In this document: positions 9,112-63,968 of the stretch, piece after piece
How positions within the stretch are numbered: position 1 is the first letter of the stretch
How the letters are laid out: each line of letters starts with the position of its first letter
DNA from: Mytilus galloprovincialis
Lineage: Eukaryota; Mollusca; Bivalvia; Mytilida; Mytilidae
Reading direction: 5' to 3'
DNA length: 64,000 nucleotides
Assembly: GCF_965363235.1 (NCBI RefSeq)
Contig: NC_134845.1
Coordinates: 32,598,154 to 32,662,153 of the forward strand
Notes under the pieces: generated by a model
Databases searched by the model: none
What the model saw: the letters and a program-made list of their open reading frames with translations, nothing else
Told to the model about the DNA's origin: nothing
Made by a program: the position numbers and the translations under genes

Positions 9112-12100
9112 ATGACACATACAGCAGTCATTTGTCTGACAGTATTCACAGTCATGATACAAAAGAAAGGTACATTTATAACTTCATAAACCAACATTTT
9201 CCTAACAAAAAAATGACCCTAGCTGCCCCTTCCAACGCCCCCCCCCCCCAAAAAAAAAGACTTACCACGAAACCGTTTTTTTAATTAAAGAATTATCATA
9301 ATTATATTAGCACTACACTTCACTACAAATTGAGAATAGAAATGGCGAATGAGACTTCAACCCCGACCAAAGAGCATTTCAAGATCACAAACGGGTACTA
9401 GTATACAACATAGCGAGAATTTCCCACATCCTGTGGCGAGACTCAGCTAGCCCCTAAACAAAAATGTGTACTAGTAGTTCAGTTAAAGTAGACGTCACAC
9501 TAAACTCCAAAACATATGCATGTTGTGTACAAGTTATCATTTTGTACAAATTATAATTTGTACAAAAAAATTGTACAAATTATAATTTGTATTTTTACTT
9601 TGTACAAATTGTAATTTGTACAAAAAGAGCCTGTACAAATTACAATTTGTACAATATTTGACGAAAATTCAGTTATAACTTGTACAATAATTCATAATAT
9701 GGATTTTGGTGAAAAAAGCATTGATACATACCACTGTTATTAAAGGACCATACAGCCATGACTGTAAATCTTATTTTCAAAATTCAAAATTGTTCTTTAT
9801 CATTCGTTTGGGCAGGTGATTGAATTATGGCATCGGGGATGAATCTTTTGACTTTCACATTTATCTCTTCTTAAACACTTACTTTGGGGTCAAATTCTTT
9901 AATAAGTTGCCAAAGCTATATATCCTAGGAATTATTATTTACACTCTTTTACATGTTAGTCAGTTCTCAATTGATATAATAACATGTGTTAACATGGATG
10001 ACGTTGTTGATCACAAGGAGAAATTTGTCCAAAACTCTAAATTGGGCAAGACACTGATATTGAAACACCCAATATTCTTGCAAGTAAGTGTGCACTGTTG
10101 ACAATAGATTGAAGACTAATATCATACCACAAAAACAACATTCAGTAACTATCACAACTTGTTGTTTGGGGTTAATGTCATTATACATATTCCTCAGTAT
10201 GATCGTGTCCAAACCTGTCCTCGATAAATCTAAGGCGATATATCTTAGGCGTAATTGTTGAATCTGGAGATTTTGGTTACCAAATAGGAAAAGCTGTATA
10301 AATTTTAACAGGATATTTATTTCTTAAAGTTAAATTGTAGCTATGAAAGACACATGTTTATTCACAGCAACGGTTCTTGAGCTTCAACTTTCGCTATGTG
10401 AAATAGTTAAACTGCCTTTGAAAAAACAGGTTTTTTGGGGTTTCTTTTAAGTTAATGCATAGGCGGGTACAGTACTTTTGAATGTAAAAATGTGAAAGTT
10501 ATCAGATGTTGTGCATTTCCCAATGCCATCGCAAACGAATGATAAAGATTTATTTTAGTATTTGATAAATAAAGGTGAATTATGAAGTAATTTATTAGAA
10601 ATTCGGTAGTGTGTATCAATGATTTTTTCACCAATATACATATTATAAAATATTGTACAAGTTATAAGTGAAATATCGTCAAATTTCGTACAAATTGTAA
10701 TTTGTACAGGCACTTTTGTACAAATTACAATTTGTACAAAGTCAAAATATAAATTATAATTTGTACAAAATGATAACTTGTACACAACATATGCATGAAC
10801 CTAAATTTAGAAAAAATCATACAAGACTAACTCATCTATGCCTCTAGCCAATTTAAAATGAACACACAGCACTACTCACAGTGAAATTCAGTTTAAAAGA
10901 ATTCTGAGTCCGATGTCAGAATAGGTTACAGAAGAGCTTTAGCAAAAATGACAATGATACATATATAACAAAGGACGACTAGCAGTTACTAACATGCCAG
11001 CTAATTTGCTTATTAATTCTTGATCTTTTAATGTTTTATTTTTGATCCTTTTTTTTTTTACCTTTTGAATCCCTTGCAAGGGTTTCAAAAGAGGGACGAA
11101 AGATACCAAAGGGACAGTCAAACTCATAAATCTAAAACAAACTGACAACGCCATGGCTAAAAATGAAAAAATTATGTGTTGATATAAACTATCATTGATA
11201 TGGTCATGATTATAAATCTACCACAGGAATAAATTACCTTAGCTGAATTTGGCGTCACATTTTGGAATTTTGGATTCTCAATTCTCTGTAATTTCGTACT
11301 CTCTTTGGCCGTTTTAACTCTTTTGATTCGAGCTTCACCGATAAGACTTTTGTAGACAAAGATCTGTTGGCGTACACGATTTTAATAACTTTGGTAAACC
11401 AATTAATTTCTTTTATAGATACTAGTAATGTAAATGCTGCAATTCAACTGACAGCAACTCCTTACCTGCAGACATTTGTATCACATGTCACGTACAATGG
11501 AACAACATATTATCCGGAAGGGTGAGATAGACCGATAGATGTGCTAACCAACTCCCATTAAAAGAAACAAACACAAAAAAAAAATACGTTTTAAGGCCGT
11601 GCAAATATGATATATATATGTAGGACTCAAATCTATGGTAGGTTCCAAATCTATGGCAGATTCCTAACCTATGGTAAATGTGACGTCATGCCATCCCAAA
11701 TCTATGGCAGATTTTTAAAAATCCAAATCTATGGCAAGTTTTTGTAATTTCCTATAAATCTATGGCGGATTTTTGTTGTTTCCAAATCTATGGCAAATTT
11801 GTGCAAACGGAAAACAATACAGTACATTTTCTACCAATCAATGATTTGTCTCAAGCAAGTGAAAATATACGACACCGGGGGCATGTCTATTAACATTTGT
11901 GAAATAAAAATTCCATAATGGTCAACCAAAAAAAAAAGAAATAAATTCATATACCTTAATGCAGACTTCAAGATTAAAATGATGCGCTATGTAAAAAAAT
12001 AAACATTTTTTAATATGTGCATGGTACCTGTTTAACCCATTCATTAATCGAACTAATAAGTCCTATCACAATCAAGAAGGCCGCTTTTTATAAAAAAAAA

Positions 12101-15100: not shown

Positions 15101-17796
15101 ATACAAATGTAGATTATAAAAAAATAGAAAGGCAATGAAAAAAGATTTGTTTTGCCGAATATATACACAATTTATTGAAAGGGAGAGTCACATTACGAAT
15201 GGTAAATAATAGACATAATTTGTTGAGCTGGATTTCTGAGTCTAATGCACATGCTATGTTTTTTTTTCGTTTCAGAAATTATTCACGAGAGTGGTTAATT
15301 ACAGGACAAATTCTGAACTACACTATCACGATAGAATTTATAGCATGTGTCCTAGAGACGGCTAATAATAAAGGAGTTTGTATAGACGATAACATATTTG
15401 TTTATGATGGTATGTAATAGTTTTTTTCCTGACTTGACGGCCATTCATTGTTTTTTTGTACCTAAAATTGTTGGAATGCTTAACACAACCTAACACATTG
15501 ATCTTCAAATGAAGACTGAACGATAATGTCTCCGGCTTTGCGAAGAATGAAAAGAAAGTTTTTTAATCAATTTATCTATTATTAGACAATCTGATTTGAT
15601 ACCACAGGAATAGATTATCATAGCAATATTAGGCAAAATCATATGACTTATTTGTTCTTTAGTACTCATCAACCTCGTACTTTATTTGTTTTGATTAAAA
15701 CAATCTTTTTTTATTCAAGCGTACCTGATGAGTTTTTTTGTAAGATTTGTGAAATTATATGCCTCAATCGAAAAATTTAACAGCTTGAATGATTTTAAGC
15801 TGAATTGAACAAAAGCTTTATACTGACAATTTCCCTTGCGAATAGAATTATTTTGGTTTGGAACATTATTGACGAGAAACAAATTTCAAAATGAATATAT
15901 GGTATACCACCAATTTGGTATAATGTATTGATATGTAAAATATTGAATGTACATGTGCTACTGAACATTAAAAAAGGATGTTGATTAACTTCTATTGCCT
16001 CTAATTGATCACAAAATATTTAGTCCTATACAATTTGAATATCAAACTGTTATTTGATCAAAAGTGTCCAAAATAATTTATGTGCACTAAGTACAAATTT
16101 CTTGTGATTCATATCTTCATGTTCATATAGATCGTAGAGTAGCATCTGCCGGGCGTCCAATGCATTTTTCTTGTTTTATTTAAAAGGTAAAAATGAAAGC
16201 ACAACTCTACTTAAAGAGACTTGCTGTGGACTTGGTGACCCAGTCCCGTTCACAGTGCAGAGTACATACGGCGATATGTTTGTTCTTTTTCAAACTGATA
16301 ACACAGTCGCAAGGGAAGGTTTTCGTATAAGTTATATACTGGAGGGAGCACCAACGACAACTGCACGTGTCATCATAAGTAAACCATCTAGTTTCACAGT
16401 TCAAACTTAACCTTTACATAGTTATAAAGAATAAATTTCCACACTTTTATATAACTTTTAAAATCATTTATGAATCATGTGTTGATCTCAACGTTAGTGT
16501 GATAGTGTCTTCTAAATCACATCATTAAAAGTAGCTATTTGCTGACGAAATATTCATATTAACCTGATGTAAGGCAACGCAAATAATTGTATTTTATTTT
16601 TATTGTAATATTATTCGTCCTATCGTGTGTAAGATTACTTTTAAGTATTTCCAAGACAGTATTTTTATTTTCAAAATCAGTGATACCTTCCAAGTATCAA
16701 AAAACAGAAAATAATATTCACAGAAAGATGTTTTTGGAGTATGCAAAACATATTCTGATGTACGAAGAAAAAATGGACTGTTTGAATATTTAAAGTGAAA
16801 ATAAATAAATTAGGAAACAAGTGTCATCAAATTGATTGCTTGATTTATTGTTTTGCTTCATATCATACTTGTTACGTAAAATTAAAGTGAATAACTGTCA
16901 TATCAGTTGACACTAATTATACGATTTTTCAATATTGACTTTTTTCGAATTAAAAGGGTTTCATACATCCGCTTTAAAAAAGGGAAGTAAGCTTCAAATA
17001 TTGACATACAGATATTTACAGTTACAGTTATCAATACTGTCGATGCTTTGCACAAGGTCATTATTTATTAGAGTGGTTATGACGTCTTTACCCATTCGAT
17101 GTGTACTAATTGATACTTTCTTATTTTCATTCATAAAAATGTAAAAAAATAAGAACAGATTTTATTAGTAGGAAAGAGCTTCAATCATCAGATCGACACG
17201 AAACACTTATACAAAATACACAATACATAAAGACCCAATATAGGTGTACTCAAAGTTACTGAGAGCATAGACAAAGCCAACTATGCACCATTATGTTTTC
17301 TCTGACTTGTAAACTAAAACGCACAGATACCAAAAACAAGTGTAAAAAATTAAAAACATGAGAAAAACATGACCTTGTGCAAAAATATAGATATCGACAT
17401 ACCATAATGCAGGACAATAAGTGATCATAAAAACATCGAAATTCAGTATGAATATGGTCAAATGTAACACGATAAATCATCAATAATATCAGGAGCTTTT
17501 ACAAATATTAAATATATGTTGATAATTACGTGTAAAGGTGCATTTCTAACTCAACTACTATTACTAATACGGCTTTCTGATGGAACGTAGCTTCATCTTA
17601 CAAGATTTCATATTTGTATTTTTCAGGCACAAACCACGATATAGAAGACAATAAACTGCCAATGTATATTGCTGTTGGATGTGGCATGCTTGTAGCTTTA
17701 ATCATACTAATTATTTCTGCTGTCTGTTATTATAAAAGGAACACAACCAGTGGTGATAATACTCAATACTATGAAAATTATGAAATAAAAACCTAA
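9112..17796 (+). CDS. CUB gene A: single-pass membrane protein with one CUB domain (5 exons, 218 aa)
   Basis: Exons: 9112-9169, 11419-11521, 15276-15409, 16187-16378, 17627-17796. All introns are GT..AG with end phases 1, 2, 1, 1, and the total is 657 nt, an intact frame of 218 residues. An in-frame ATG at 9088 is possible, but 9112 aligns with the starts of genes B, C and D. Exon 1 is a signal peptide (TAVICLTVFTVMI core). Exons 2-4 form a CUB domain: 'YPEG/NYSREWLITG', 'ITIEFIACVLE', 'CIDDNIFVYDG', 'LLKETCCG', 'VLFQTD', 'EGFRISYIL'. The usual first CUB cysteine before W-x-I is missing. A short Thr-rich stalk (EGAPTTTA) follows. Exon 5 gives one membrane helix (about YIAVGCGMLVALIILIISAV), a basic stop (YYKR) and a 22-residue cytoplasmic tail ending YYENYEIKT. 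N-glycosylation sequons include NYS, NYT and NES. Intron retention after exon 4 would stop at 16410 and give a soluble form of 172 residues. Ligand unknown; a surface recognition role is inferred. Confidence 0.85.
9335..9440 (+). repeat. Dispersed mussel repeat fragment in CUB A intron 1
   Basis: The blocks 'agaatagaaatggcgaatga' and 'caaccccgaccaaagagca' match a related copy at about 47731-47790. Just upstream is a C10/A9 run (9239-9259). Non-coding. Confidence 0.55.
9514..9521 (+). repeat. Target-site duplication, left copy
   Basis: ATATGCAT immediately outside the left inverted repeat; identical to 10789-10796 on the other side of the element. Confidence 0.8.
9522..10788. mobile_element. 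Non-autonomous DNA transposon with long terminal inverted repeats and 8-bp target duplication
   Basis: Both ends read GTTGTGTACAAGTTATCATT inward, and similarity of the two arms runs for about 180-215 bp (left 9522 to about 9737, right about 10604 to 10788). The element is flanked by identical 8-bp direct repeats ATATGCAT at 9514-9521 and 10789-10796. The arms carry four (left) and three (right) copies of a near-palindrome TGTACAAATTRTAATTTGTA, probably binding sites for a transposase. The 0.87-kb centre has no transposase-like frame; the 93-residue frame at 9820-10101 shows no domain. It lies in intron 1 of CUB gene A. An 8-bp duplication fits hAT-like or P-like elements, but the termini are not typical of hAT, so the superfamily is open. 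Confidence 0.85.
10789..10796 (+). repeat. Target-site duplication, right copy
   Basis: ATATGCAT immediately outside the right inverted repeat, matching 9514-9521. Confidence 0.8.
11040..11165 (-). repeat. Dispersed mussel repeat, reverse copy
   Basis: On the minus strand it contains 'ttagccatggcgttgtcagt', also present with small changes in the plus-strand repeat at 58435-58660 ('ttagccatggcattgtctgt') and more weakly near 43400-43460. Non-coding. Confidence 0.6.
11228..11400 (-). repeat. Dispersed repeat with 'attaccttagctg' block, reverse orientation
   Basis: Contains 'ttaccttagctgaatttggc' and a decayed 'gagcttcaccgataagactt' block, matching the family seen in the same orientation at 36300-36950 and forward at 22160-22350 and 62290-62890. 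It abuts exon 2 of CUB gene A. Confidence 0.65.
11620..12650. mobile_element. Second palindrome-array DNA transposon with inverted ends
   Basis: The left end reads GTAGGACTCAAATCTATGG and the right end, reverse-complemented, GTAGAACTCAAATCTATGG. The arms stay similar for about 55 bp through 'cagattccta'. ATATATAT flanks both ends (11612-11619 and 12651-12658), compatible with an 8-bp target duplication, though the sequence is simple. Each arm is built from repeats of the interrupted palindrome AAATCT-ATGGC-AGATTT (about six left, four right). The centre is AT-rich, with no transposase frame. It lies in intron 2 of CUB gene A. Confidence 0.75.
13060..13206. repeat. Cluster of 20-bp palindromes, possibly one end of a third related element
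   Basis: Contains AGGCATTTTGTAAAATGCCT and close relatives at about 13068, 13100, 13159 and 13186, plus the variant AGTCATTATGTATAATGACT at about 13129. The cluster ends in 'cttgtaac' followed by ATATATATAT, so read inward the end would be GTTACAAGCATTTTG. No matching opposite end was found, so it may be a solo or truncated terminus. Confidence 0.5.
13598..13646. repeat. Inverted repeat (hairpin) of about 17-bp arms
   Basis: 'gtggattatcggattta' and 'taaatccgataatccac' flank a loop of about 15 nt. Just upstream, 'aatcattagagaaacagatt' (about 13561) recurs at about 60126, so this is probably part of a dispersed element. Confidence 0.65.
13690..14492. mobile_element. Nested inverted-repeat elements in CUB A intron 2
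   Basis: An outer pair, 'atcagcccaacaatgtt' near 13690 and its reverse complement near 14470, encloses an inner pair, 'aaaggagtaggttcagtaag' at 13715 and 'cttaccggacctactccttt' ending at 14271. A third, internal pair (cgtgttcatcctt near 13948, aggatgaacacgg near 14011) makes a hairpin. The inner unit is about 0.55 kb with no coding potential. Class cannot be assigned. Confidence 0.6.
14310..14435. repeat. tRNA-derived (SINE-like) segment
   Basis: The plus strand has a canonical pol III B-box/T-arm, 'agttcgaatcccggcgaggg' (14415-14434), after 'gacgcgctagactactcgac'. The minus strand across 14403-14325 also has an A-box-like TGGTCGAGTAGTC and a B-box-like GAGTTCAAATTTC. A-rich stretches flank it on both strands. 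The sequence does not fold into a complete tRNA that I could verify, so I call it tRNA-derived and not a tRNA gene. Confidence 0.45.
15590..15790 (-). repeat. Diverged dispersed repeat in CUB A intron 3
   Basis: Shows 'ggaatagattatcatagcaa' and a 'gtacctgatgagtttttt' block in the order and orientation of the family at 36720-36880, with many changes. Confidence 0.45.
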
Positions 17797-33956: not shown

Positions 33957-36900
33957 ATGTCACGTGCATTAACCATTTGCCTCATAGTTGTTGCAGTCAT
34001 TATGCAAATGAAAGGTACATTTTAAAATCATAAACTTTATTACATGCAGTCGAAAATTACTTATTTGTCCAATATATATACCTCTTATTTATCTATTTCT
34101 TTAATGGCGAGTTTTATAATGAGAAATTGTTTTCCTTTTGATTTATTGGTAAAGTGATAAAAACTTGGTCATGTATCAGTGCATCCAAACATTGTTTCTG
34201 GAATTCCAATTAGTGGGTTCATTGAAGATGATTAAAGTGGGTAGAAAACTCCATCGAACATTAAGCAAATATGGAACAAATGAGTCAATATCATTTGTGG
34301 ATGGTGATGAGTTGCCTAACATATGGTATCTGTATACTGTACCTCTACACCTTGTGTCTGTTTACTGTTCAATCTTTGTTGTTTGTTTTATGCATGTTTT
34401 GTATTGTTTTTGATCGTTAGATCTTTTTTTAGTATCGGCCACGATTTTGTACTCATGGTCGATTTTTCTGATTTTTTCTCTCGGTTAATTTAAGAACGTC
34501 AATATAAAAAAGGACATTAAAACACCAGACATTTGTAACGGTGAAGAACATTTTACACAGATTTTATACTTTCAATTGATGAATTACTAGCGATTTGAGA
34601 CTGACAGTAAACAAGAAACGGAACCGACACAAACGTATTTAATTTGTCTGAAGATACTAATGCCAGTTGGCACGATGTCAGTAAATTGTCAATAATATAT
34701 GTTATGTTTATTGTGCAGCTTTTATAAACATAACATAAAACAGCTTGTATAATTGTACCCTTCGTTGAAGCAATTGATTATTTATTGCACTATAAGTATT
34801 TATTGTAAGTATAGAACGGATCCCACTAGGTATACCATAATGAGAAAACAAAAAACAAAAATCTTAATGACACAAAAATCTAAATCATTATTAGACATAT
34901 GCATAGTACTTTACAATAAAAACAGAATTATCACAGTATGCTTAACTCTAAACCGTTCTGATTGTTGTTTATAACAAATACTCAAATATTTTGGATTAAT
35001 TGTATATTTCGCATTCGTTTTTACAGAAAATGCAAATGCCGCAATTCAACTAACAGCAACCTCTTACCTGCAAACATTTGTATCTCATGATACATACGAT
35101 GGAAAAACATATTATCCTGAAGGGTAAGTAAGATTGTAAAACTGAACTGTCTTATATAATAGACGAATCACAACGGAATTGAAATAAAAAGAAACAGAAT
35201 TTTTTGCGTGTAAACCATAGGTAAAAAAATCGGTGTTCGACTGTCTGTCATTGAATAATTGTGTTTTTATACAAAAAAAAAAACACAAAAAAAAAAACCA
35301 AAAAAAAACGTTCTTTTCTGTTTACATTCATATCATTCAAATCGATAACGAACATATAAGTGAGCTTTAAATATAGGAAACCGAGGTTTAGCGATTTTCA
35401 TCTCTTATACTGATTAAAAAGACAAGCTATAACACAAGCATGCCTGCGAAACATTGTTTTTGAAAGTCTCTATAGATTATAGAAAACGAAATATTTACTC
35501 CTTTGAGTCAATTTTATGTTCCTATTTCGTTTCAGAAATTATTCCCGCGACTGGTTGATTACAGGACATGAACTGAATAACGTTATCACATTAGAAATCC
35601 TAAACTGTACCCTAGAGACCTCTAAAGGAATTTGTTTATTTGATAACATATTTATTTATGACGGTATGTAGTAGTTTAACTAACCGACTGAATTGCCGTC
35701 CGTCATTCTTTAATGATTCTTTATGTCTTTCGTTTTCTTATGACACACTTTTTTTTATTACGGTGATAAGTAATCAATAACAAAGACAAAAATAAAAATA
35801 AGAAAGTGAAATAGCGTCACTGATGAGTCTCATGTAGACGAAACGCGCGTCTGGTGTACTAAATTATAATCCTGATAACTTTGATAACTACTTTTATAAT
35901 TTAATCATGGTAACTGAATATCATTTCCCCCTCATTTGTATAATTAAAAATCAATAACCACATTTGTTACACAACATTTCAGTAAGGGCATATGTCACAG
36001 TTAAAAGGGAAGTAATGACGTTGCTAAAGTAGAATTTTATTTTTCGCGTCGTTAGACTGTGATATTTCGGGAAAAGATGCATTTATTAATGATATGTATC
36101 ATTCAAACGGATTTAGATTGAAAACGAGTTCGTGGATCCCACTTTTCAAAATGACGTTTGTACTTATTTTCATGATAACGTCAACTATGCAATTAAAAAA
36201 TAAAAAAATAAATAAATATACAGCACAACATGACGTTTCTTTCTAAATTCATGAACATTGGATGAATATAGGTTATTTTCTTAAAATAAAAATGCATAAA
36301 TTAATAGGATACTCTTATTTCAATCCTGGTATCTATTATGAGCCCAATAGTCTGTGTTGACATGAGCTATCATTACATGTTCATAATTATAAATTAACTG
36401 TTAACAAAACGTTTTGAAATGCTAAAGCTTTTCTACTTCAGGAATATATTACCTTAGCTGTATTTGGCAAATCGTTTAGAAATTGTTTATTTTTGATTCG
36501 TGCGTCACTGATGAGTCTTTTGTAGACAAAACGTGCGTCGTCTGGTGTAAATATAAAATTTCAATCCTGGTATCTATGATGAGTTTATTTACAACCACTG
36601 GGTAGATGCCACTGCTGGTGGAGATTTGTTTCCCCGAGGGTATCACCAGCCTTCACTTCTGTGTTGACTTGAGTTATCATTGATATGTTCATAATTATAC
36701 ATTAACTGTTAACAAAACTTTTTCGAAAAACTAAGGCTTTTCTACTTCAGGAATAGATTACCTTAGATGTTTTTGGCAAAACTTTTAGGAATGTTTGCTC
36801 CTCAATGCTCTTCAATTTTTAATTTGAATTGGCCTTTTTAACATTTTTTATTCGAGCGACACTGAGGAGTCTTTTGTAGACGAAACGTGCGTCGTCTGGC

Positions 36901-39900: not shown

Positions 39901-41824
39901 AAAAGTACTGAAATCGGAGAAAATTTAAAACGGAAAGATATTTTGATACTTAGATTTCTGATTGTAGTAATTCATATATTACTTTAAACAGCACACCATA
40001 CATTTTTTATTTGTTAAAAGATCGCACGATGTATTTTCTCTTACATGTGAGTAATGGAGATATATCGTGTGACTAAAGTCGTGCAATGATGTGTACTTCG
40101 CCTAAATGATCCTATTATTAAAATTATACACGACGTAAGAGTATGACGATTCAGTTATTAACTTAAAAAAAATATTTTGTAATTGAATGAAACATGTTGA
40201 AAACCAGTCATTTCAAAACCTGGGGTTCAAAATAAGACAGAATGGATACACATATCGCGAAAATGAATCAACAAACAGGTTACAGAGAACTAGATACTTA
40301 ATAATTCCACGCTGTTATCAATGACGTTGACGAAAACTGTACTAATTGAAGTTACAACATTATGAAAAAGAAGATGTGGTATGATTGCCAATAAGACAAC
40401 TGTCCTCAAGAGACAAAAATGACACAGACATTAACAACCATAAGTCACCGTACGGCCTCAACAATGAGCAGAACCCATACCGCATAGTCAGCTCTTTAAG
40501 GCCCCGATATGACAATGTATCAATTCAAACCGAGACAACTTACGGTCTTATTTATATACAAAAATGAACGAAAAACAAATATTTATCACATAAATAAACA
40601 AAAACCACTGAATTACATGCTCATGACTATTATGTAAACTTAGTCTGGTGTATAACGTGTTTAGCCTGGCATATTTGGTAGACATTTTATAATTACAAAA
40701 ACTGGGTTAAATCACTTGCTGGTTGAAGATTCTTTCTCGAGGGTATCACCAAACCAGTCAACTTTTTTGTAGACATGACGTTTAATCAATATGAATTCTT
40801 TTCTGCGAATTATCTCTCTTTAAAATGTTGTATTGTAAACAAATCTCCTGTATTTAAAATTTTCTAGCATTCGAAACTCTACTGCATATACAATTTTCGA
40901 AACATTTATGTTTTACTACATTATATACGATTGTTCGGTAATTAAGGCTCTACAACTTCAGATATTATTCGACTTACCAACTATATTAATTCGAGATCCA
41001 CTGATGATTCTTATGTAGATGGAACTCGCGTCTTTCTCAAATTTACTAGCCTAGTGTTTTGGTGAGCATTTACATCCACTATCAAATTTTGAATGAAGCA
41101 TAAAACCCAATTGAATTGCATAAAATAACAACACATACTATTCTAATGCTAAGATTCAACTGTTTTCGTAACTTTATTTTTAACTGCTTGGAACCAAACT
41201 TTCCTATTCCAAATTTTAACTTTCAACCCAGGGAATAATATTAAAACGTTTGCTTGACTTCATCATCAACTAGACATATATTTTTGAAAAGAGTATATGT
41301 TGAATTGAATAACTTGGTTTGGTATATTGATATTCTAGACATTACTTCTGAAATAAAGATAAAGAAACAATTTGATTACAAAAAATCAACGTGAAGGTGA
41401 TAGCTTATCTAATCATATATGTATGATCACATATGTTGGATGATTTATAATCATCGTCGTTATTTTAAATATCCATGTGATGATAAGTTCAAACTCCTTG
41501 GCAAAATGGGCAATGCTATGTTAATTTTAATATTTGTATTGTTTGTATAGTGCAAGGAGTAGATGTTGACTCTGTATGATTTTACATTTCGGTTTTACAG
41601 GTTTCAACGCAACCGCACCTCTATTGAAACAGACTTGTTGTGGTTCTTATGACATAGTCCCGTTCTCACTGCAAAGCACTGACGAGTCTTTGTATGTTGT
41701 TTTTGAAACTGACGATACTGATAGCTATGAAGGATTCCGCATTAGCTATAAACTGGAGGAATCACCAACGAAATGTTTAGAAGCAACAACAAGTAAAGCA
41801 GTCATTTTCTATTTATTTTCTTAG
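33957..41824 (+). CDS. CUB gene B: signal peptide plus one CUB domain; no membrane exon found
   Basis: Exons: 33957-34014, 35027-35123, 35536-35663, 41601-41792 (phases 1, 2, 1, 1, as in gene A). Exon 1 encodes MSRALTICLIVVAVIMQMK. The CUB core is 'YPEG/NYSRDWLITG', 'VITLEILNCTLE', 'CLFDNIFIYDG', 'LLKQTCCG', 'VVFETDDTDSYEGFRISYKL'. Exon 3 is 6 nt shorter than in A and D. Exon 4 ends at a donor-like a|gtaaag; without splicing the frame stops at 41824 after KAVIFYLFS, giving a 168-residue secreted protein. Between exon 4 and the next signal-peptide exon (gene C, 42372) I see no membrane exon, so B is either secreted, truncated or spliced onward. Splicing from B exon 4 to C exon 2 would keep the frame (1-1 phases) and give a two-CUB protein. 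Confidence 0.75.
35270..35312 (+). repeat. A-rich simple sequence
   Basis: Runs of 8-11 A interrupted by CAC and CC. Slippage-prone; no other content. Confidence 0.8.
35810..35890 (-). repeat. Dispersed repeat end, reverse copy
   Basis: 'gcgtcactgatgagtctcat' followed by 'gacgaaacgcgcgtctggtg' is the reverse complement of the start of the 22155-22350 family. Confidence 0.7.
36300..36950 (-). repeat. Two tandem reverse copies of the dispersed repeat
   Basis: 'caatcctggtatctat' / 'caattctggtatctat' blocks at about 36322, 36569 and 36917, with 'gtcactgatgagtcttttgt' and its variant at about 36507 and 36860, define two head-to-tail copies of about 350 bp. A matching pair lies in forward orientation at 62290-62890, in the same numbered intron (3) of gene D. 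Confidence 0.7.
37145..37354 (+). other. Short open frame of unknown origin in CUB B intron 3
   Basis: A 69-codon ATG frame, basic, with the end 'INTMLRQNYKRYREGKSS'. No domain is recognised and there are no clear splice borders. It sits just upstream of the 500-bp repeat block and may be repeat-derived. Confidence 0.15.
37491..39295 (+). repeat. Triplicated 500-bp repeat block bounded by 'agctcacctgg' and 'ctctagttttt'
   Basis: 'tcttctcctctgaaactact' starts at about 37611, 38113 and 38614, giving a period of 501-502 bp. The first two units are nearly identical for several hundred bases and the third is more diverged. The block opens 'agctcacctggcccaaagga' plus a GTC microsatellite and closes 'aaggtgagcgacacaggctc' then 'gagcctctag'. 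The opening and the reverse complement of the closing share GCTCACCT, a weak inverted end. I recognise this opening from many bivalve genomes. Non-coding. Confidence 0.85.
37545..37592 (+). repeat. GTC/GTCC trinucleotide microsatellite
   Basis: Runs of cgtcgtcgtcgtcg with interspersed gtcc inside the repeat opening. Confidence 0.85.
39530..39575 (+). repeat. GAT-rich microsatellite
   Basis: 'atgatgatatgatgatgatg' followed by ccgccgatgacgatg. Simple sequence. Confidence 0.7.
40365..40565 (-). repeat. Dispersed mussel repeat, reverse copy
   Basis: 'aagaagatgtggtatgattg', 'ccaataagacaactgtc', 'caccgtacggcctcaacaat' and 'catagtcagctctttaaggc' in this order; near-identical order at 44390-44590 and the reverse complement at 46740-46935. 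The 60-codon open frame here is repeat-derived. Confidence 0.8.
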
Positions 41825-42371: not shown

Positions 42372-45300
42372 ATGTCACTTACGACAGTCATTTGTTTGGC
42401 AACTTTTAAAGTCATTTTGCAAACGAAAAGTAAAATGAGTGCGCATGACAATGAAATTATTTTCATCAACATTATGAGTTTTGTTCACATACAAAAAATA
42501 GGTAATGCAGCTGAAAAAAAAATGCTCTCATTACTCGTTACTGAAAGGAAAAGGCATCCTAATAGTCATTTAAAAAATTGTCCTGAAATTTCCAAAGAAT
42601 TTGAACTTATAAGAAGTATAAGTTTCGATTTTTGATTTTTCAATTAAAGCCAGCAAAATGCGGCTGTACCATATCTTCTCTTTCTTTTCAAAATATTTTT
42701 TTTTGTTTTTGGTGATCTTTTTGAAGTTACAATATCTTTGGTGTTTTGATATTGTTTTTGACTGTTCGTCGTCCCTATTTTCGGAGTCGCGTGCTCGTTA
42801 TATTTGAAATTTGGTTTCAAATGTTTATGTGGTATTTTCCTTTTTTAAGAACATGACGAACAAAACAGACAACATTGGTTAAGGTAAACTTTGTTCTAAG
42901 AGGCTACTTTTAGTTTCACTACAGTCAAATGATGTATATCTAACTAATCATTATTTATACGTACTGATAATAAACAGCAGGTCCGACCCTGTAGGAGATG
43001 TATTATCGTTTACTACCAACGCCGGTTATTATAGTTTACTTAGAATTTCGTTAAAATGATATTTTTTTTCAACAACGTTAATTGAAGCATCATGGAACTT
43101 CGATTGCGTTTCACCTTAATGTTTTTCCATTAAGGACCTTGCTCTGCATTCAAAAACCAGTGTAAAATTTGGATTTTGGTGAGATTGAGGAATTTCAGGA
43201 CGTTTTAAAGGTGAAAATATAAAACCCGCTAATGGATGTAGTCAGAAAAACACATTGAAATCCTTCTCACAAAAAATAAAATAAAAATAAAATAATTGAA
43301 ATAGGTGTGAACGTCTTATTTCTGTATTTGGACCATGAAATTAAGAGAAGAAAACATTTGGCTATGTTTAGTTTTAGACAGTTGCTTGATTTTTGTGCGT
43401 CCTTTTTTTTAGTGTCTTGCCGTTGCATTGTCAGTTTGCCTATCACTTATGAGTTTCAATATTCTTTTGAAAGCGTCCGTCTATCTTTTAGGTAATCATA
43501 AATTATCTATTTCATTATTAACGTTTTAAATTATTATCAAAAAGTAATTTGGGTTATACCACAATGAGAAAAACATAAACATCAATAGCTATAGATATTT
43601 TGAGTTCAACACACACTTCCTAACAATAAGCAAATCATCCATACAATATTTTAGATGGGCTATATGTTTTAGTAATAGCTATACATATTGCATTTCTTTT
43701 AAAGATAATTCAAATGCTGCGATTCATCTGACAGCAACTCCTTACCTACAGACATTTGTATCACATGACACGTACAATGGAACAACTTATTATCCGGAAG
43801 GGTAAGACTGTAAGACTGATTAATAAAAGTTATAGTCAAAATCAAAGTAAAAAGTGAGCGTTGTGTTTTCTGCACTCAATAAAACCCCACAATAGAGAAC
43901 AAAAGCACATTGTTAAGTCTTTGTCTATCTAAAATAACAAGTTAAAATGATACATTCAAATTCTAATGCACTACAATTTCAAGTGGGTTTCGTATATAAT
44001 TAGTATCTATTGAAATGGTAAATCGCACCGATTGTCGGTATATCTCTCTCGTTGTTGTAATTTGTATGCTGTGTTGTAAGTGTCGAGTTTCTTTTTGGAG
44101 GGGAGGGGATATGGCTTATTAGACATAGTATGAACCAAACAATATATCAACATTCGTTGTATTAAGACTATCATGGTAACTACTTTGTGCTTGATAGTTA
44201 TGAATTTTGAACCCTACAATACGGATGAGTATAGCAAACTAATAATTCATAGTATTAAGGAACATAACTTATCATTTAAACATTTCATTGACAACAGGAA
44301 AGTCACAAGCATCAAGTCTGTCATATATCATAGTTTGAGGTCAACCATCGGTGTCAATATCGCGGACAAGATCAAGATATGAATATAAAAAAGAAGATGT
44401 GGTATGATTGCCAGTAAGACAGCTCTCCACAAGAGACCAAAATGACACAGATTAACAAATATAGGTCACCGTACGGCCTTCAACAATGAGCAAAGCGCAA
44501 ACCGTATAGTCAGCTATAATAGGCTCCGATATGACAATATAAAACCATTCAAACGAGAAAACTAACGGCACTTTTTATGTAAAAAATGAAAAGTTTCTGT
44601 AGTAACCTTAATCTGAAGTTCCCTATGATAAATTGAGCGACAGGATATCATCAATATATTCGTAAGTGAAATGAAAAAAAAATTGCAATTTACATATTCG
44701 GAAAACAACTTTCTGTTGATATATTATTCCATCAAGCTCAATATTGTCGATCTGAAGATGATAATATTTTCGGGGTATTTGAGTTTAGAATCAGTGTGAT
44801 TTTTAAAGAAAATTGTTTGTTTAACTGAAACAAGGAATTTAAATCTAAGTTTCCAATTTTTTTTTTTTTTTTTTTTTTTATAGAAAAAGCTTTATTAAAT
44901 GGGCAGTTAAGTCAATCTTGCAATTAATCATGGGAATAGTAATGTCAAGCGTACAAAAATATAAGGTTTTGATAGATATTACTAAAAGATATACGTTGCC
45001 TCTTGGATATACCCTATCGCAATATTTAACTAAACTACGATTAAATTTGAGATACAAACTTATATAGACACCTCAGTGAACATTGCAGTTTTTCTTCTTT
45101 AAACATATAACACAGAAATTGTTCGATTCTTAAAACATGAATACTAATAACATGTTTTTATCATTGAAGCGTATGTCAATGGGACCTGGTGTTTTCTTTT
45201 TTCTTTTTGAAACATGTCTAGTACGTTAGAAGATTTTAACCGTATATATATTGTTCTTGATGACTTTCATTTATATATTATTATCAAATTGTATATTATT

Positions 45301-48300
45301 TTAAATGATTGTCATATTCAAAAATGGATGCCTAGATACAATGGCATAGAGAAACGTCACTGTAAGCTTTTATATTTTAGTGTTTTGCTAAATACATATA
45401 ATGTATAGACATTCAGAAACGTTAGAACTAGAGACAGATTTAAGTAGGAGCGTCAATCCTACTGAGTCTAAGGTTTGTGCTATGTTCTTTTTTTCTTTTC
45501 AGTAATTATTCTCGGGACTGGTTAATGACAGGACAAGATCTTAATTACAAAATCACTATTGAAGTCCTCAAATGTGTCCTGGAGAACAGCAAGGGAGTAT
45601 GCTTTTTTGATGATATCTTTATTTATGATGGTACGTAATAGCTTTAACTAACGACGAATCTAACCAATTGTACACATTTTGTTTTTTTCCTCAGATTTCT
45701 GTAATTTATACAAGCTGACAAGTTTTTCTTGTGTCACATATTTCTTTCGTCTGTTAAGAAATTTATAGAAACTGAGGACGGACAAAAATGGATTCGGTGA
45801 CTTTGTTTGTTTTCCATAGAATGAAAAGTACACTTTTTTAATTCAATTTGGCTATTGTAACGTATTTTTTTTATTTATGCTTCCTCGATTAAAATTCAAC
45901 ACTATGTTAACATTTGTCGGGTTTTTTATACACTCGAAACGCTTTTCAACATGTACATATAGAGGTTAACTAGATATTTTTTCTTGCATTTGGAGTGAGT
46001 TACTTTTTGCTTATTTCAGAGGAATTCATGTCTACTTGTATTTTTGTCCATCTGATAAGTTATATATTTCATTTCGTTTGAAATTGGGGTTTTCCCGTTA
46101 GGTATTTGTAGTAATTATATATAGATGGGAACTAGTGTAACTAGTTTTAGAACTAGTTCTGCAAGAGTATGTACTATTTATAAAGTCTGATGTTACGTGT
46201 ACAAGGCACGAGTAAAGTTTTGGCGGTTTCTACGGGTGGGGTACTATATAAAGTTTGGCATTTAAATGTATTAGTATCGAAGGTGCTCGCAGTTAGGTCG
46301 TATAGTACGAAGTTAGTCACATTAATGGCTGCTATGTTTATTACATGTATTTATATTATGTTGTTTGTATCGAAGAAACTTGTATTATAGAGTGAAATAA
46401 CATTTGTATCGCAAGAGAAGATAATAATGTTACTGCGAGCAACTAACTCTATTTCTGTGTTTGTTTTGTTTTAAGCCTATTGAATTTAGAGTAGAAATAC
46501 TTTAAATTCGGACGAGCAGGGCGAGGGAGAATTTAAGAGCCTTTTCAACTGATTTTTATAGTTCGTTCTTATGTTGTAATGTTATACCACTGTCCCAGGT
46601 TAGGGGGAGGGTTGGGATCCCGCTAACATGTTTAACCCCGCCACATTATTTGTGTATGAGCCTGTCCCAAGTCAGGAGCCTGTAATTCAGTGGTTGTCGT
46701 TTGTTTATGTGTTGCATATTTGTTTTTCGTTATTTTTTTTACATAAATAAGGCCGTTAGTTTTCTCGTTTGAATTGTTTTACATTGTCTTATCGGGCCTA
46801 TTATAGCTGACTATGCGGTATGAGCTTTGCTCATTGTTGAAGGCCGTACGGTGACCTATAGTTGTTAATTTTTGTGTCATTTTGGTCTTTTGTGGATAGT
46901 TGTCTCATTGGCAATCATGCCACATGTTCTTTTTTATAAATAATTTTCAAGTTATTTTATTTCCCAAACTAACATTATACCGCTTATCATGGGAAAAACT
47001 AAGAATATGTAGAGCTTTGATCAATGCCCGAACCGAAAATTGTTATTGCACAGTCTGGCTCCGCCTCCTGTCCTAGTAAACTTTGAAACAGTGGCCATAA
47101 ATTTCACAATAAATTTAAATAAAATGCATATTCATAGTGTGTTATTTTACGTTTTTTGATTGAGTTAAGCCTGCAAATTGATATTTTATCGTGTGTTTTT
47201 CGATATTGTGATGTTATGTTATTGTCTTAGAAAAAGGGAGAAGGTTCGGTACCATTAAAACGTTTAATCCCGCTGCAAATGGTTGCACCTGTCCTAAGTC
47301 AGGAATCTGATGTACAGTAATTGTCGTTTGTTTATGTAATTTATACGTGTTTATCGTTACTCCTAGACGAGTTTTTTATCTCGTTTTTTATATAGATTAG
47401 ACCGTTGGTTTTCCCTACACTAGTAATGTTTGGGCCCTTTATAGCTTGTTGTTCGGTGTGAGCTAAGACTCCGTGTTGAAGGCCGTACATTGACCTATAA
47501 TGGTTTACTTTTATAAATTGTTATTTGGATGGAGAGTTGTCTCATTGGCACTCACACCACATCTTCCTATATCTATATACAACAAATCGAAATATACATC
47601 CGAAAAGGGAGGCATTACCATAACTGGATTAGTCAAAACTTGTAAAATTAATATCAAATTGAATGGTTTCATAAACTTGATGCAAATTAGGACTGAGAAG
47701 AGCAACAAAGTCGTGTCAATATAATAAAATTGAGAATGGAAATGGGGAATGTGTCAAAGAGACAACAACCCGACCATAGAACAGACAAAAGCTATTCAAT
47801 GTCATGTGTGAAATTTTATATTCAATAAAAATAATGAAATATTTTTTTTATGCTAGATAAGCTTAAAACTTGAAACAAATAGTGATTTCCAAGAGGCAAA
47901 TTCATAACTGAAAGTCCCTTACATCAATAAGTTTTACTTTAAAACAAGTGTACGTGAACTTTCTAGTATTTAATGTTATAAAAATCTTCATAAAAACTTG
48001 TCTTCCCGTACACTTTTTCGCTGATGTTTTTTTCCCGTTTGCAGGGAATTTAACAACAAAACCTCTAGTAAGAATTTCAGCCACCGCAAGCACAGCGCAA
48101 GTGCGAGGGGAAGAAGTGCTTTGTGTATTCATATGACTAATTAGTGACGCTCGAATAAAAACAGTTGAAAATGACAAATAAAGTACGACATTGGAGAGCA
48201 TTGATGACCATAAATTTCTAAACATTTTTTTTCAAAATACAGCTAATGTTATCTTTTCCTTGGTTAGAAAGTTGCAAACTTTTGTTCATAGTAAAGTTAT

Positions 48301-50013
48301 TATTATGACCATGTCGATGAAAATAATATGCTTTGCAAGGTTAATGGAAATTGATGGTTCTTAAAGAACAAATTAAATACACCAAATCATTTTAAAATAA
48401 TTTTGTCAAATGGAAATGCAATGAAAGTATAAAAGAAAAACATCATCATCATAGCTCGTACAATTCATTATTTTTTTTAAAAGCCTCAAGTGCTCTGCGT
48501 TGATTGTCACAATACGGTAAAATTCGGAAAGAAATTCATAAGATGCGGAGCCTGTGATCAAAACGGACTGAATGTCATATTATTTATCCATTTTACCTTA
48601 TAAATTCATGATGAATGTAAATTACGTGCAAACAGGACTTAGTTTAGTATACATGAATGCATTTGTTAAATAATTTCAATAGTATAATTGAAAGAAACTC
48701 GTTTCATATGATTTTTAGGAAAATTGCAGGAAAAATCTCAAATCAAAAGTAAGCTTGTTTTATAAAGCCAACAAAATATCCACAAACGTAATCTCCTCCA
48801 ACTGATAACTGAAAATACAAATATGATCACTCTTGATCATCTTTCAACGTACAGTAAATATATTGCCAGAGAGAGGAATACTTTAGCTATGCTGGATGTA
48901 CAATTACACAGCCATGTCCGATGAGAATAAGGGCTTTAAATCAAATGTGTAGATACAACTCCTCTCTCTATACACATTAAGAAGCCTTGCCATAGCTTTT
49001 CGAGTGGTACGTAAGTGATTGTTTGAATGCAAATATGATTTCCTTTTCCAATATAAACCTATTTTCCGGTGACAGTCCATATCTTCCTACCTTTTTACAG
49101 AACATAGATACTGTATTTATTGTCAATTGATACTCAACCTGAACAAGCATTACATATGCACCTCTGGACGTCAAGCAACAGTCAATTAATTAACTAATAA
49201 ATAAAAGTAATTACTGTCAATCATAACTTAAGACAACAAACGAGGAAACATGTAGCCCGCAACGATATTATTAACTTGATTTAGATTTAGCGATATTTAA
49301 CATATTATAATACTTGTAACCATACATTAATGGTAAGATGTAACTGTATATGTGCCTAAATTGTTAAACTGCTTCGGTACAAAGTTGCATATTCCATTCC
49401 TTTTATTTCATCACGGTGCATACAAATATTTGCTTAACAGCAACATTAACTTGAAATATATATGAGTATATGTTTCATTTAAAAACTTGGTATTTTAGGA
49501 CGATACATACGATATTATTTCTTAAAAAAATATAAGGAAAATGATAAATTTTTATATCGTAACTTCGGGGTAATTACTTATTCAATCACAGATGTTTGAT
49601 AATTTATAATCGTCGTCGTCAATAATTTATATATTAATATCTTTGTTTTATTTTCAAACTCTTTAGCGACATGTGGCATATTCATATAAATGAGGAGTAG
49701 CTGTTGCCTTTTCATTTCTTGCTTTTATTTTACAGGTGCAAATGCTAGCGCGCCCCTTTTGAAACAGACTTGTTGTGGTACTGGTGATGATGTCCCGTTC
49801 TCATTGCAAAGCACATGCAGCTCTTTATATGTCGTTTTTCAAACTGACGATACAATAAGCAGGGAAGGTTTCCGTATTAGTTATATACTGGAGGGAGCAC
49901 CAACGACAACTGTAAAAGTCACAACAGGTAAACCAGTCATTCTTTCTTTTAAAACTTATTCCCTTTCATTAATAAATCAACTATTCATCACTTATCAAAT
50001 TGAAGTATATTAA
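42372..50013 (+). CDS. CUB gene C: signal peptide plus one CUB domain; no membrane exon found
   Basis: Exons: 42372-42429, 43705-43801, 45503-45630, 49736-49927 (lengths 58, 97, 128, 192, identical to gene B). The CUB core is 'YPEG/NYSRDWLMTG', 'ITIEVLKCVLE', 'CFFDDIFIYDG', 'LLKQTCCG', 'VVFQTDDTISREGFRISYIL', followed by GAPTTTVKV. Exon 1 reads MSLTTVICLATFKVILQTK; a Lys at position 13 interrupts the hydrophobic core, so export may be weak. Exon 4 ends at a good donor (acag|gtaaac), but no membrane exon was recognised before the lysozyme relic at 53.9 kb. Read-through would stop at 50013 and give 186 residues. The first exon starts 580 bp after the end of gene B exon 4, so B and C form a tight tandem pair, and fusion transcripts are possible in frame. 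Confidence 0.75.
44390..44590 (-). repeat. Dispersed mussel repeat, reverse copy
   Basis: Same ordered blocks as 40365-40565: 'aagaagatgtggtatgattg', 'ccgtacggccttcaacaatg', 'ccgtatagtcagctataata'. Lies in intron 2 of gene C. Confidence 0.8.
44859..44880 (+). repeat. Poly-T run
   Basis: About 21 T residues in intron 2 of gene C. Simple sequence. Confidence 0.8.
46590..46935 (+). repeat. Dispersed mussel repeat, full forward copy
   Basis: Contains 'aggttagggggagggttggg', 'cctgtcccaagtcaggagcc', 'ggcctattatagctgactat', 'gttgaaggccgtacggtgac' and ends 'tctcattggcaatcatgcca'. It gives the reference order for the other copies in this window. Confidence 0.85.
47220..47580 (+). repeat. Dispersed mussel repeat, second forward copy
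   Basis: Same order as 46590-46935 with substitutions: 'cctgtcctaagtcaggaatc', 'gttgaaggccgtacattgac', 'gagttgtctcattggcactc'. The open frames at 47500-47724 come from it. Confidence 0.8.
48135..48300 (+). repeat. Dispersed repeat, partial forward copy in CUB C intron 3
   Basis: 'tagtgacgctcgaataaaaa' then 'gagagcattgatgaccataa' and 'acagctaatgttatcttttc', as at 62340-62460. Overlaps the domain-free minus frame 47902-48225. Confidence 0.7.
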
Positions 50014-57490: not shown

Positions 57491-57645
57491 TAAATCTTTT
57501 TTTTCATTTAAATAATTTTCATTCGAATTTTGGCATATTCAAACGTGAATATATTTATTACCTTATGTTTGCTCCTTGTAAATTGCTGGGTCCTGGAGAA
57601 TAGGCTGTAAGGTTTCGCACATCGCTGTCAATTAATGAAATTAAA

Positions 57646-59522: not shown

Positions 59523-62500
59523 ATGTCTTGTTTTATTGTCATTTGTCTGTCAGTTTTCACAGTCATTATGCATATAACAGGTAAATTGGTGTGCATGAAA
59601 ATTATATATTGTCAACAAAACTACAGCTTTTGGTGACGTATCTAAAAGACACTGAACACTGTTGAACTACATTCTCAACTCATAATTAAATTTGATTACT
59701 TCTGTCAAAAGCGATTGTTTTTAATGCATTAATATCCATATGTCTTGGTTTTTCTCGTCGATATTTTGCGCGATTTGATGACTAAGTAGACAGTGTTAAT
59801 TTTGACAGTTTATGCTTTTCGCGTAACGGGGTTTAATAAACGTGTAAAAATTACTGTATTGTTTTGTTGAAGATGAAAATAACATTTCTCTAATTTTTGT
59901 GCTATTTTCACATTTACTGACCGGTGCGAGAAAAATATTTCTACTCACTAAATAAAAATCGGTTCTCGGCAAATGGTTGGTTGAGTTTTAATTGTGACGT
60001 TGAATTTTCTTGTTTTCTTCTGAATTTTCTTATTGTGACGTCATGAAAAAAGGTGACCATGCCTGAAGACGTCACATCAAAAGTACACAGCTTTCCTCAA
60101 ATCTTTGAAAAGAAAGGATAAAAATCATTAGAGAAACAGATTCAACCACTATAACTCGGGTATTACGATATCTCTCCACTGTCAACAGTTAAATTTTAAT
60201 TATTTAAAAGCTAACACACTAGATTAACGGACAAATAAATAAGTGAAATGTAAAATAACAAACGCATAATTCGGAGCTTTTAAAAAAAAAGTCTGCCAAC
60301 AATTCAGCTTTGTATTAAAGTATAAGTAATATATGTATGATACTTATGTCATTGAGGACAATTTGAGTCTATGGAATAACCTCTTCAATAAATCTCCAGT
60401 ATTATTACTCTGTTCGTTTTAGAAAAAAAGCCCTTATTTTACCATGATGATCAAAAGTATTCATCATTTCAATGGGTGGTCTAGCTGAGATACACGCATA
60501 AGTATTTGTAAATGATAAAGTACAACATATTTACCATTCCCTTTAAATGAAAACCAATAAAATTCGGCATTTAACTAAATGTGTGAACTTTTGATGTTTT
60601 TATAGAACTATCCAATCATACTTTTGGATGAAGAAAACGGACAAAATATAACACCTTAGTTTTAGTAAATATGTATCACTTAATGGATTTCAAAATATCC
60701 TTCTAATTTTAAAAGCTAAAAAAAATCGTAAGAAAAATACATACCCTAAAAAGACAAGTTGAATTGCACCGATATTGATATACATCTAAAGATTTACATA
60801 GTATTCCAAACAGTAAATAAAATGCTTTACAATATGTCGATCACTAAAGCATACTAAAAAACAAAACCCAAATCTATTACAGAGAATGTAAATACGGCAA
60901 TTCATCTGACAGCAACTCCTTATCTGCAGACATTTGTGTCACATGATTCGTACGATGGAACAACACATTATCCAGAAGGGTAAGTTGATCTAATAATCAG
61001 ATAACGCATCTTGATAAGTGATAATTGATATATATCTTTCAGAAAGGTATATCTCGACATTTTTCGTTCTATCAAGCAATCACGACAACCGCGTTATAGT
61101 TTCTTTAGAATGATCAACCGCTATCACTAAACATTGTTAAATCTTGGTTTTATGCAATAATAATTGATCCCCTTTAATGAGTAGTCAATCATTATCGAAA
61201 CAATGTATCAAAATGACAAAACTTGTTTTATAGATATTGACTCTTGCTGAAATTTAATCATTAACGGCTTTGCCTTGAGGGTAACACCAGACAATGCCCA
61301 GTAGTCAGAATTGTTCCGTTAATATTTCATATCAATAATGGTTATTTTGTTGATAAAATTACTGTTTATACATGCTGATGATTCACTTGGATGGGACGTT
61401 GTCTCATTGACACTCATACCAAATCTTCTTATATCTATGAATTATTAGATACACTTTTTTTAAGAATTCTCGGTTTGTTTATGCTCTGCAGCTTCGTATT
61501 TGTTTCATTGTCTTCTGTATAAATTACTCCATGTATCAAGCTATGTATATTGCATTTTATTTTCACTTTTCTGAATCTTTCTTGATTGGCGTAAGAGAAT
61601 AAAGATAATGTCTATCATTCTATTTTGCTTTTAAACTGTTTTGAGTCGACGGCCACTGTTGAATCTAATATAGACAAAACACACGTTTCGAAAACCAAAT
61701 CATAATCCGTGTAAATTTTAATATTTTAATATCATATTTGTCGGATTGAAAGCATAAGATCTTAAGATTTTGTTGTAGGCCAGGTGATAATATTCTAGAT
61801 TTTGATAATCTGGAATGTCTGAAATCTCAACTGGAATGGTGTACGCCGAAAAAATCCCGAAAAGGCCGTCATGTACATGAGAAAATTTGAGCTAAATTTG
61901 GATGAGGGTTTTTGTTTTCCAATATCAATGGTAGCTAGTAGTTGATATTTCGTATATCAGAGTCTAAAGAATATCTATGTTTTTATTTTGTTTCAGAAAT
62001 TATTCTCGCGACTGGTTGATTACAGGACAAATTCCTAATTACACAATCACAATAGAATTCCAAGCATGTGTCTTGGAGACGGGTAACAATAAAGGAATTT
62101 GTATAGAAGACAACGTTTATATTTATGATGGTATGTAATAGTTTTATTGTGCCTACTATCCATTGGTTTTGTTGTGTTGTTTTTTTCAATTTTGTTTTTT
62201 ATAAGTAACACAATCTAACAAAATGATTGTTCTATGTCCTTTATATCCTCACTTTCTGGCAAAAAAAATCATCATAGGTACAAGGATTAAAATTTAATAT
62301 TTACGCAAGACGTGTGTTTCGTCTACGATAGACTCATCAGTGACGCTAGAATAAAAACATGTTTAAAATGCCAAATAGAGTACGAAGTTGAATAGCATTG
62401 AGGACCAAACATTCATAAAAGTTTTGCCAAATACAGCTAAGGTAATCTTTTCCTGAGGTAGGAAAGCCTTAGTATTTCAAAACTTCAAAGTTTTGTTAAC

Positions 62501-63968
62501 AGTTAATGTATAATTATGAACATATCAATGATAACTCAAGTCAACACAGAAGTGCTGACTACTGGGCTGGTGATACCTTCGGAGAAATAAATCTCCACCA
62601 GTACTGGCATCGACCCAGTGGTTGCAAATAAACTCATTATATATACCAGGATTAAAATTTTATATTTACACCAGACGCGCGTTTCGTCTACAATAAACTC
62701 ATCAGTGACGCTCGAATAAAAAAATGTTTTAAAGGCCAAATAGAGTACGAAGAGCATTGAGGACCAAAAATTCCTTTAAGTTTTGCCAAATACAGCTAAG
62801 GTAATCTATTTCTGAGGTAGAAAATCCTTAGTTTTCCAAAATTTCAAAGTTTTGGTAACAGTTAATTTATAATTATAAACATATCAAGGGCAAATTAATT
62901 TAAGCCTTAAATAGCTATTTCGATCTGAAAATTATCTGAAAAGATAGTAGAAAAATGTTTAATAAGATATATGGGATGTAGTTATGTGAAATAAAAAAAA
63001 AGATATAGAATTTAAGAATGACACTAGAAGTCAAAAAACCAGTAGTGCCCCCGAATTTGACTTCCTGTAACCTGTTAGTCAAAAACACTGTAAACAAGAC
63101 GGCATCTGATGCAGACGATCATATATCCATGTTTTAAGTTATGCAAACTTCTCAAATAAAAAGCAGATGATATAACAGTGTAATATTTTTTGTTCAATGA
63201 CTCCCAAATGTGACGGTCATTAGGACGTGACGTCACATATCGGTTGACGTTATTGTTGGGCATGCCGTGTAACATGCATCGAGCTGTCATATTTTCTGGA
63301 ACACGAAATACGACCCAGAAAAACTACTGGTAGTAAGATGGTTAATGAAGTCTGTGAAACAATAGAAAATTATGAATCTGATATGTAGCAGACAAAAAAT
63401 GCAAAAATGCGAAAAAATCAAGTGGAAAAGTTCCTCACAAATTCATTGGAAATATGATATAAATTTATTACTCTTAGAAATAATATTTGCTTTTTAAAAA
63501 ATTTGGAAAATTATTATCGCCTGTTTCATCACAGATTGCAATCGAATCAACTCTGCTTGAATATTTCTAGTCACCCTCGTAGTTCATTCTCCCCACTTAC
63601 CTCCCCGCGGTAAGTTCCAACTCCTATACAAGAGCCTGCATATTGTCACATTTATATTCAACATGTTGTTTGAGGAGAACTGTAGACTTTCTTGTAAAAA
63701 TGTTTCTTCTTTTATTTTACAGGTACAAATGCAAGCGCAACTCTAAGAAAACAGACTTGCTGTAGCTCATTGGATGACACGGTCCCATTTAAAGTAAATA
63801 GCACAAACAGCTATATGTTTATACTTTTTCAAACCGACAAAACATTTAGCAGGGAAGGTTTTCAAATAAGTTACATACTTGAGGGAGCACCAACAACAAC
63901 TGCACGTGTCAACACCAATAAACTTATACCAGAGAGAACATCAATGACAACTGCACGAATCATCACAA
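59523..63968 (+). CDS. CUB gene D: partial; signal peptide and CUB domain, last exon(s) beyond the window
   Basis: Exons: 59523-59580, 60883-60979, 61997-62130, 63723-63968 (phases 1, 2, 1, 1). Exon 1 encodes MSCFIVICLSVFTVIMHIT. The CUB core is 'YPEG/NYSRDWLITG', 'ITIEFQACVLETGNNKG', 'CIEDNVYIYDG', 'LRKQTCCSS', 'ILFQTDKTFSREGFQISYIL'. Exon 3 has the 134-nt length of gene A. Exon 4 is 54 nt longer than in A, B and C: after GAPTTTARV it adds a second, similar stretch ending MTTARIIT before a donor (a|gtaagc). The usual CCG is CCS here. The A-like structure predicts a membrane exon about 1-1.5 kb downstream, outside the window. Stands head-to-head with the glycosidase relic, as A does with the intact gene. 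Confidence 0.8.
60126..60190 (+). repeat. Dispersed element fragment
   Basis: 'aatcattagagaaacagatt' repeats the text at about 13561 and is followed by a similar but decayed 'actcgggtattacgatat' hairpin arm. Confidence 0.5.
62290..62890 (+). repeat. Two tandem forward copies of the dispersed repeat in CUB D intron 3
   Basis: Copies start at about 62290 and 62645 (about 355 bp apart). Each has 'gtttcgtctac', 'actcatcagtgacgct', 'aatagagtacgaag', 'gcattgaggaccaaa', 'gccaaatacagctaaggtaa' and an end 'aacagttaat...aattat'. Same composite as 36300-36950 but inverted. Confidence 0.8.

Follow-up and report, generated by a model that had tools for sequence, protein, structure and literature searches.

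The question raised by this locus is what kind of protein is encoded by a row of similar small genes on one strand of a 64,000-nucleotide stretch of the Mytilus galloprovincialis genome, and how far the family extends. The whole stretch, referred to as the window, corresponds to C8:32598154-32662153, and the genome searched comprised 1.385 Gb in 331 contigs.

Four gene models in the window

The first-pass annotation had described four genes (A to D) on the same strand, sharing exon lengths and phases and each coding for a signal peptide and a compact CUB-like domain. When the models were rebuilt from the sequence, the claimed lengths and phases were reproduced for all four genes (Table 1). The exons measure 58/103/134/192/170 bases in gene A, 58/97/128/192 bases in both B and C, and 58/97/134/246 bases in D, whose fifth exon (167 bases) is located outside the window. 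The phases after exons 1-4 are 1, 2, 1 and 1 in 4/4 genes, every junction is GT-AG, and none of the models contains an internal stop. A 58-base signal exon, found by DNA similarity to that of gene A, is present in each of them, in agreement with the signal peptides proposed earlier.

Table 1. Exons of genes A to D, in window numbering
Feature	Position	Strand	Basis
Gene A exon 1, signal peptide	9112..9169	+	rebuilt exon model
Gene A exon 2, N-terminal part of CUB with Tyr51	11419..11521	+	rebuilt exon model
Gene A exon 3, CUB core: extra Cys78, Cys89, calcium-site Glu81, Asp92	15276..15409	+	exon model, alignment
Gene A exon 4, Cys111-Cys112, third acidic calcium-site residue Asp136, Thr-rich stalk	16187..16378	+	exon model, alignment
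Gene A exon 5, transmembrane helix, 22-residue tail, stop	17627..17796	+	exon model, membrane-exon comparison
Gene B exon 1, signal peptide	33957..34014	+	DNA similarity, exon model
Gene B exon 2	35027..35123	+	rebuilt exon model
Gene B exon 3	35536..35663	+	rebuilt exon model
Gene B exon 4	41601..41792	+	rebuilt exon model; gene C starts 580 bases on
Gene C exon 1, signal peptide	42372..42429	+	DNA similarity, exon model
Gene C exon 2	43705..43801	+	rebuilt exon model
Gene C exon 3	45503..45630	+	rebuilt exon model
Gene C exon 4	49736..49927	+	rebuilt exon model
Gene D exon 1, signal peptide	59523..59580	+	rebuilt exon model
Gene D exon 2	60883..60979	+	rebuilt exon model
Gene D exon 3	61997..62130	+	rebuilt exon model
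Gene D exon 4, lengthened stalk	63723..63968	+	rebuilt exon model

The domain assignment was checked with HMMER, as the annotation had suggested, and all four products exceeded the curated cut-off (21.4 bits) of the Pfam CUB family PF00431. The scores were 41.9 bits for A (E 1.3e-10) and, scored without exon 1, 38.5 bits for B (E 1.6e-9), 38.6 bits for C (E 1.4e-9) and 47.1 bits for D (E 3.4e-12). PF02408, which we take to be the nematode CUB-like domain, was absent from the Pfam families reported for A-D at E values up to 1. The gene A product consists of 218 residues, and CUB is its sole Pfam family above cut-off. When it was compared with PDB sequences by phmmer, the top match was cubilin (3kq4, E 4e-10), followed by neuropilins and C1s.

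Two other features were seen near or within gene B. At positions 37599-39085, in intron 3, a unit of approximately 501 bases occurs about three times in tandem, the copies being 91-95% alike, and a short frame on the minus strand near exon 1 (33295-33510) resembles what we assume to be the end of a reverse transcriptase.

Extent and evolution of the family

The count of four genes proved to be an underestimate. Single family proteins or exons served as queries in the genome searches, and the copy numbers given here are lower bounds. With gene A exon 4 as query, at least 12 matches were obtained in the genome, and all were on C8: six lie on the plus strand at 32.61-32.69 Mb, the other six on the minus strand at 25.95-26.13 Mb. 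The more divergent exon 3 matched at least 11 places on C8 within the same two clusters; a twelfth match (C1:83583492) was dropped (E 0.09, three stops). The genome thus contains at least 11 copies having both exons 3 and 4, all on chromosome C8, five of them in cluster 1 (A, B, C, D and F) and six in cluster 2 (G1-G6). In 10 of the 11, exon 2 could be read, the exception being G6, a copy that was covered only in part. The signal exon was seen in five copies (A-D and F) and was not recognised in G1-G6. In addition, cluster 1 contains an orphan copy of exon 4 (E), interrupted by an in-frame stop, for which no exon 2 or 3 reaching E 0.01 was found in the neighbouring stretch examined. Self-comparison showed that the stretch between E and F repeats, in unchanged order, parts of the block running from C exon 4 to D. 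The breakpoint of the duplication was probably within a C-like gene, which would explain why exons 2 and 3 were not found for E.

Three pairs were joined in the tree, B/C (97), D/F (90) and G4/G5 (88), the last of which was placed between cluster 1 and the divergent group of G1, G2, G3 and G6. The dN/dS ratios (Nei-Gojobori, exons 2-4) ranged from 0.25 to 0.46 in 10/10 pairs of A, B, C, D and F, indicating purifying selection on maintained coding genes. Pairwise whole-sequence dN/dS over these exons gave no sign of overall diversifying selection among the cluster 1 copies. For pairs joining the two clusters, dS was at least 1.6 or beyond calculation. Homologous exons within the window are 49-91% identical at the protein level and, since dN/dS is also well below 1, the pattern in the window is not due to chance. 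The mean synonymous difference (pS) among A, B, C, D and F, the last of which lies outside the window, was lower in exon 2 (0.29) than in exon 3 (0.53) or exon 4 (0.43), hinting at gene conversion or at a constraint on the DNA itself.

Cysteine pattern and putative calcium site

The disulfides of a canonical CUB domain join C1 to C2 and C3 to C4. When the family was aligned with five other long CUB matches from the same genome, none of the copies followed this four-cysteine plan. The earlier statement that the first CUB cysteine is missing holds for all genes of the window but is incomplete, as C2 is missing too, its slot being occupied by Arg or Gln in 11/11 copies. G4 and G5 carry one N-terminal Cys. 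The first disulfide is also lacking in C1s CUB1. C3 and C4 are kept in all 11 copies. The first-pass annotation had further proposed that CC replaces the single later cysteine; a second Cys indeed stands immediately N-terminal of C4 in 11/11 copies, but a new Cys upstream had been overlooked. It is located at the second aromatic position of the F..F.LE strand, again in every copy, 11 residues before C3 in gene A and 9 in B and C.

As controls, the best eight of the 150 scored CUB matches of the genome were used, three of them partial; being the top-scoring ones, they lean to canonical CUBs. The extra Cys motif was found in 0/8 of these loci, and CC in 0/7 of those reaching C4 (the eighth stops short). 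The even number of cysteines, four, points to a pair of adjacent disulfides at one end of the sandwich: Cys78 and Cys89 would pair with the CC and so replace the usual N-terminal disulfide. One further, odd extracellular cysteine is present in each of B, C and G4/G5. It should be added that four cysteines forming two disulfides are what a CUB domain 'often comprises', a usual and not an obligatory feature (PMC9083331).

Tyr-Glu-Asp-Asp is described as the signature of calcium-binding CUBs (PMC10850435). In the family it is intact, Glu, Asp and Asp being present in 11/11 copies and Tyr in 10/10 copies with a readable exon 2, so that at the level of sequence the family fits this signature. Tyr51, Glu81, Asp92 and Asp136, the gene A counterparts of the calcium ligands, would hold one Ca2+. 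The acidic ligands are Glu45/Asp53/Asp98 in C1s, where a lysine contact is also described (PMC4222235), and E89/D97/D134 in Gpr126 (PMC6954182). By analogy with the C1s CUB, the acidic groups at the Ca2+ may engage a basic side chain belonging to a partner protein. The gap between Glu and Asp is 9-11 residues in the family, one to three longer than the 8 of C1s and Gpr126, and the calcium site may therefore be altered.

Membrane exons, tails and possible roles

As had been proposed, exon 5 of gene A codes for a transmembrane helix and a 22-residue tail followed by a stop. However, A is not the one clear membrane form it had been taken for, since homologous membrane exons, in phase 1 and following a similar acceptor, belong to D and F. 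That of D lies 0.8 kb past the window end (64817-64983 in the window frame, C8:32662970-32663136). The idea of a tandem family of small CUB proteins, including at least one that is membrane-bound, is thus upheld by Pfam scores, exon models and membrane exons. Within the cluster stretches read, to which this search was confined, similar membrane exons were assigned to G4 and G5 by similarity, and a weaker match 12.6 kb beyond exon 4 to G1, the weakest of the assignments. As far as read, six members (A, D, F, G1, G4 and G5) have a membrane exon.

No homologous membrane exon was detected downstream of B, where only 580 bases remain before gene C, or downstream of C. Two hydrophobic exons of the right phase were considered and rejected as weak and unmatched by the known membrane exons, one after B (42650, inside gene C) and one after C (53531). 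Comparison of C with its duplicate E revealed no convincing conserved exon downstream of C. Exon 4 ends with a GTAA donor in A, B, C, D and F, and retention of this donor in B and C fits poorly with a simple unspliced secreted end. B and C may be secreted, decaying, or spliced to the anchor of another gene.

Decay to functionless copies, in which the membrane exon was lost, would account for its apparent absence, and the branch of B is the longest in cluster 1 (0.31, against 0.09 for C), while E is already dead. All four exons of B and C are nevertheless open with intact splice sites, and the B-C dN/dS is 0.25, and we regard decay as unlikely. Still less credit can be given to a shared tail, in which exons 1-4 of B and of C would be joined to the membrane exon of D (or F) to provide alternative ectodomains on one anchor. 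The common GTAA donor, the phase 1 end of exon 4 in A, B, C and D, and the short space between B and C would suit such splicing, as would the position of G2 in cluster 2, about 700 bases before G3 exon 2. However, one or two whole genes would have to be skipped, and an AATAAA approximately 1 kb past C exon 4, in a stretch common with E, fits a 3'-end of C's own, weak evidence since this 1.2 kb contains six AATAAA.

The tails differ in length. The G4 frame continues for about 260 residues past the helix and contains PPKY, and the G5 frame, containing PPAY, is still open after 300 codons read; both are open-frame readings, and the true ends of the two tails may differ. YEN and YAN occur in the tails of A and D. 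NPxY, ITIM or ITAM motifs were found in none of the tails of A, D and F. It is conceivable, if doubtful, that long-tailed signalling forms (G4, G5), short-tailed forms (A, D, F) and soluble forms (B, C) make up an innate-immune, paired-receptor-like repertoire directed against microbes. Tandem duplication accompanied by gene death (orphan exon E with its stop), the PPxY-containing frames of G4 and G5, and a destabilase/i-type lysozyme exon nearby point in this direction. On the other hand, there is no excess of amino-acid changes (dN/dS below 0.5 in 10/10 cluster 1 pairs), the copies are few (about 11), the long tails are known from open frames alone, and the nearby lysozyme exon may simply have hitchhiked (both of its further copies are broken).

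The gene structures, the domain and its residues, the membrane exons of A, D and F and the purifying selection are shown by the sequences. We consider it fairly probable that the four genes, as part of a family of at least 11 copies, encode small cell-surface or secreted single-CUB proteins that are calcium-dependent and exist in membrane-bound and possibly soluble versions; calcium binding, disulfide pairing, ligand, role and the secretion of B and C are inferred. A member would consist of a signal peptide, one CUB of the calcium-binding type and a Thr-rich stalk, followed in six of them by a transmembrane helix and a tail. Displayed on the membrane, the short-tailed A, D and F would serve in adhesion or recognition, a role with which the intact calcium-binding signature is consistent, and B and C may release the same binding domain in soluble form. 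If so, the family would provide a calcium-CUB receptor of very small size, consisting of one stalked domain, that has natural paralogues in membrane-bound and perhaps also in soluble form, as well as a natural experiment on how the CUB fold tolerates relocation of one of its two disulfides. It would also add a recognition family to an animal genome rich in CUB matches (150 scored). A more elaborate version can be put forward only tentatively: a so far undescribed receptor family would have lost the ancestral N-terminal disulfide and acquired a second one next to C3-C4, with the calcium site unobstructed, and its long-tailed (PPxY), short-tailed and soluble members would use a common binding domain much as paired receptors do.

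Calcium-binding CUBs such as those of C1r/C1s, Gpr126, cubilin and neuropilin-2 resemble the family in CUB sequence and in the conserved Tyr-Glu-Asp-Asp, but belong to multidomain proteins, whereas here one CUB forms the whole ectodomain. Cubilin and neuropilin-2 are both multidomain. The same is described for Gpr126 (PMC6954182) and for C1s (PMC4222235); the C1r/C1s set of modules, CUB-EGF-CUB, CCP and serine protease (PMC4222235), is not matched by gene A, with its 218 residues and CUB alone above cut-off. As judged from its sequences, this is a CUB family whose cysteines do not follow the usual plan of four and whose architecture differs from the multidomain ones of known calcium-CUB proteins.

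Spermadhesins consist of a single CUB, are encoded by clustered genes and are only secreted. They are described as small CUB proteins of seminal plasma, and their binding to the egg coat is reported (PMC10850435). Gamete or reproductive-tract proteins comparable to these mammalian proteins would likewise be small, with a single CUB and genes in a tandem cluster. The membrane exons of A, D and F contradict a secreted-only plan, and dN/dS gave no sign of rapid evolution; we judge a reproductive role to be improbable. Coral skeletal single-CUB proteins, described as part of a mineral matrix and as having no other known domain, share the signal peptide, the single CUB and a Thr-rich stretch with the family (PMC4890752). 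No published family of this design was found among the titles and abstract beginnings of the open full-text literature, which largely excludes subscription journals; relatives may well be present in other journals and in database entries.

Several neighbouring features were also noted. On the minus strand, positions 5182-7515 form one uninterrupted frame of 777 codons whose start resembles a signal peptide. It gave a sub-threshold match to F5/8 type C (23.3 bits, cut-off 28.2), had no PDB relative at E 0.01, and by eye is presumably glycosidase-like; a broken copy is located at 54597-55066, also on the minus strand. An intact second-half exon of a destabilase/i-type lysozyme is present at 27418-27618 on the plus strand (PF05497, E 9.4e-14) and matched PDB lysozymes, while no match to the first-half exon was found within the window. 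Broken copies of this exon lie at 53960-54117 and approximately 14.7 kb past the window end. Elsewhere in the genome, the 150 scored CUB matches include runs of exon matches at C2:63.95-64.03 Mb and on C14 at 18.2-18.3 and 70-72 Mb, which suggests other large CUB genes or clusters.
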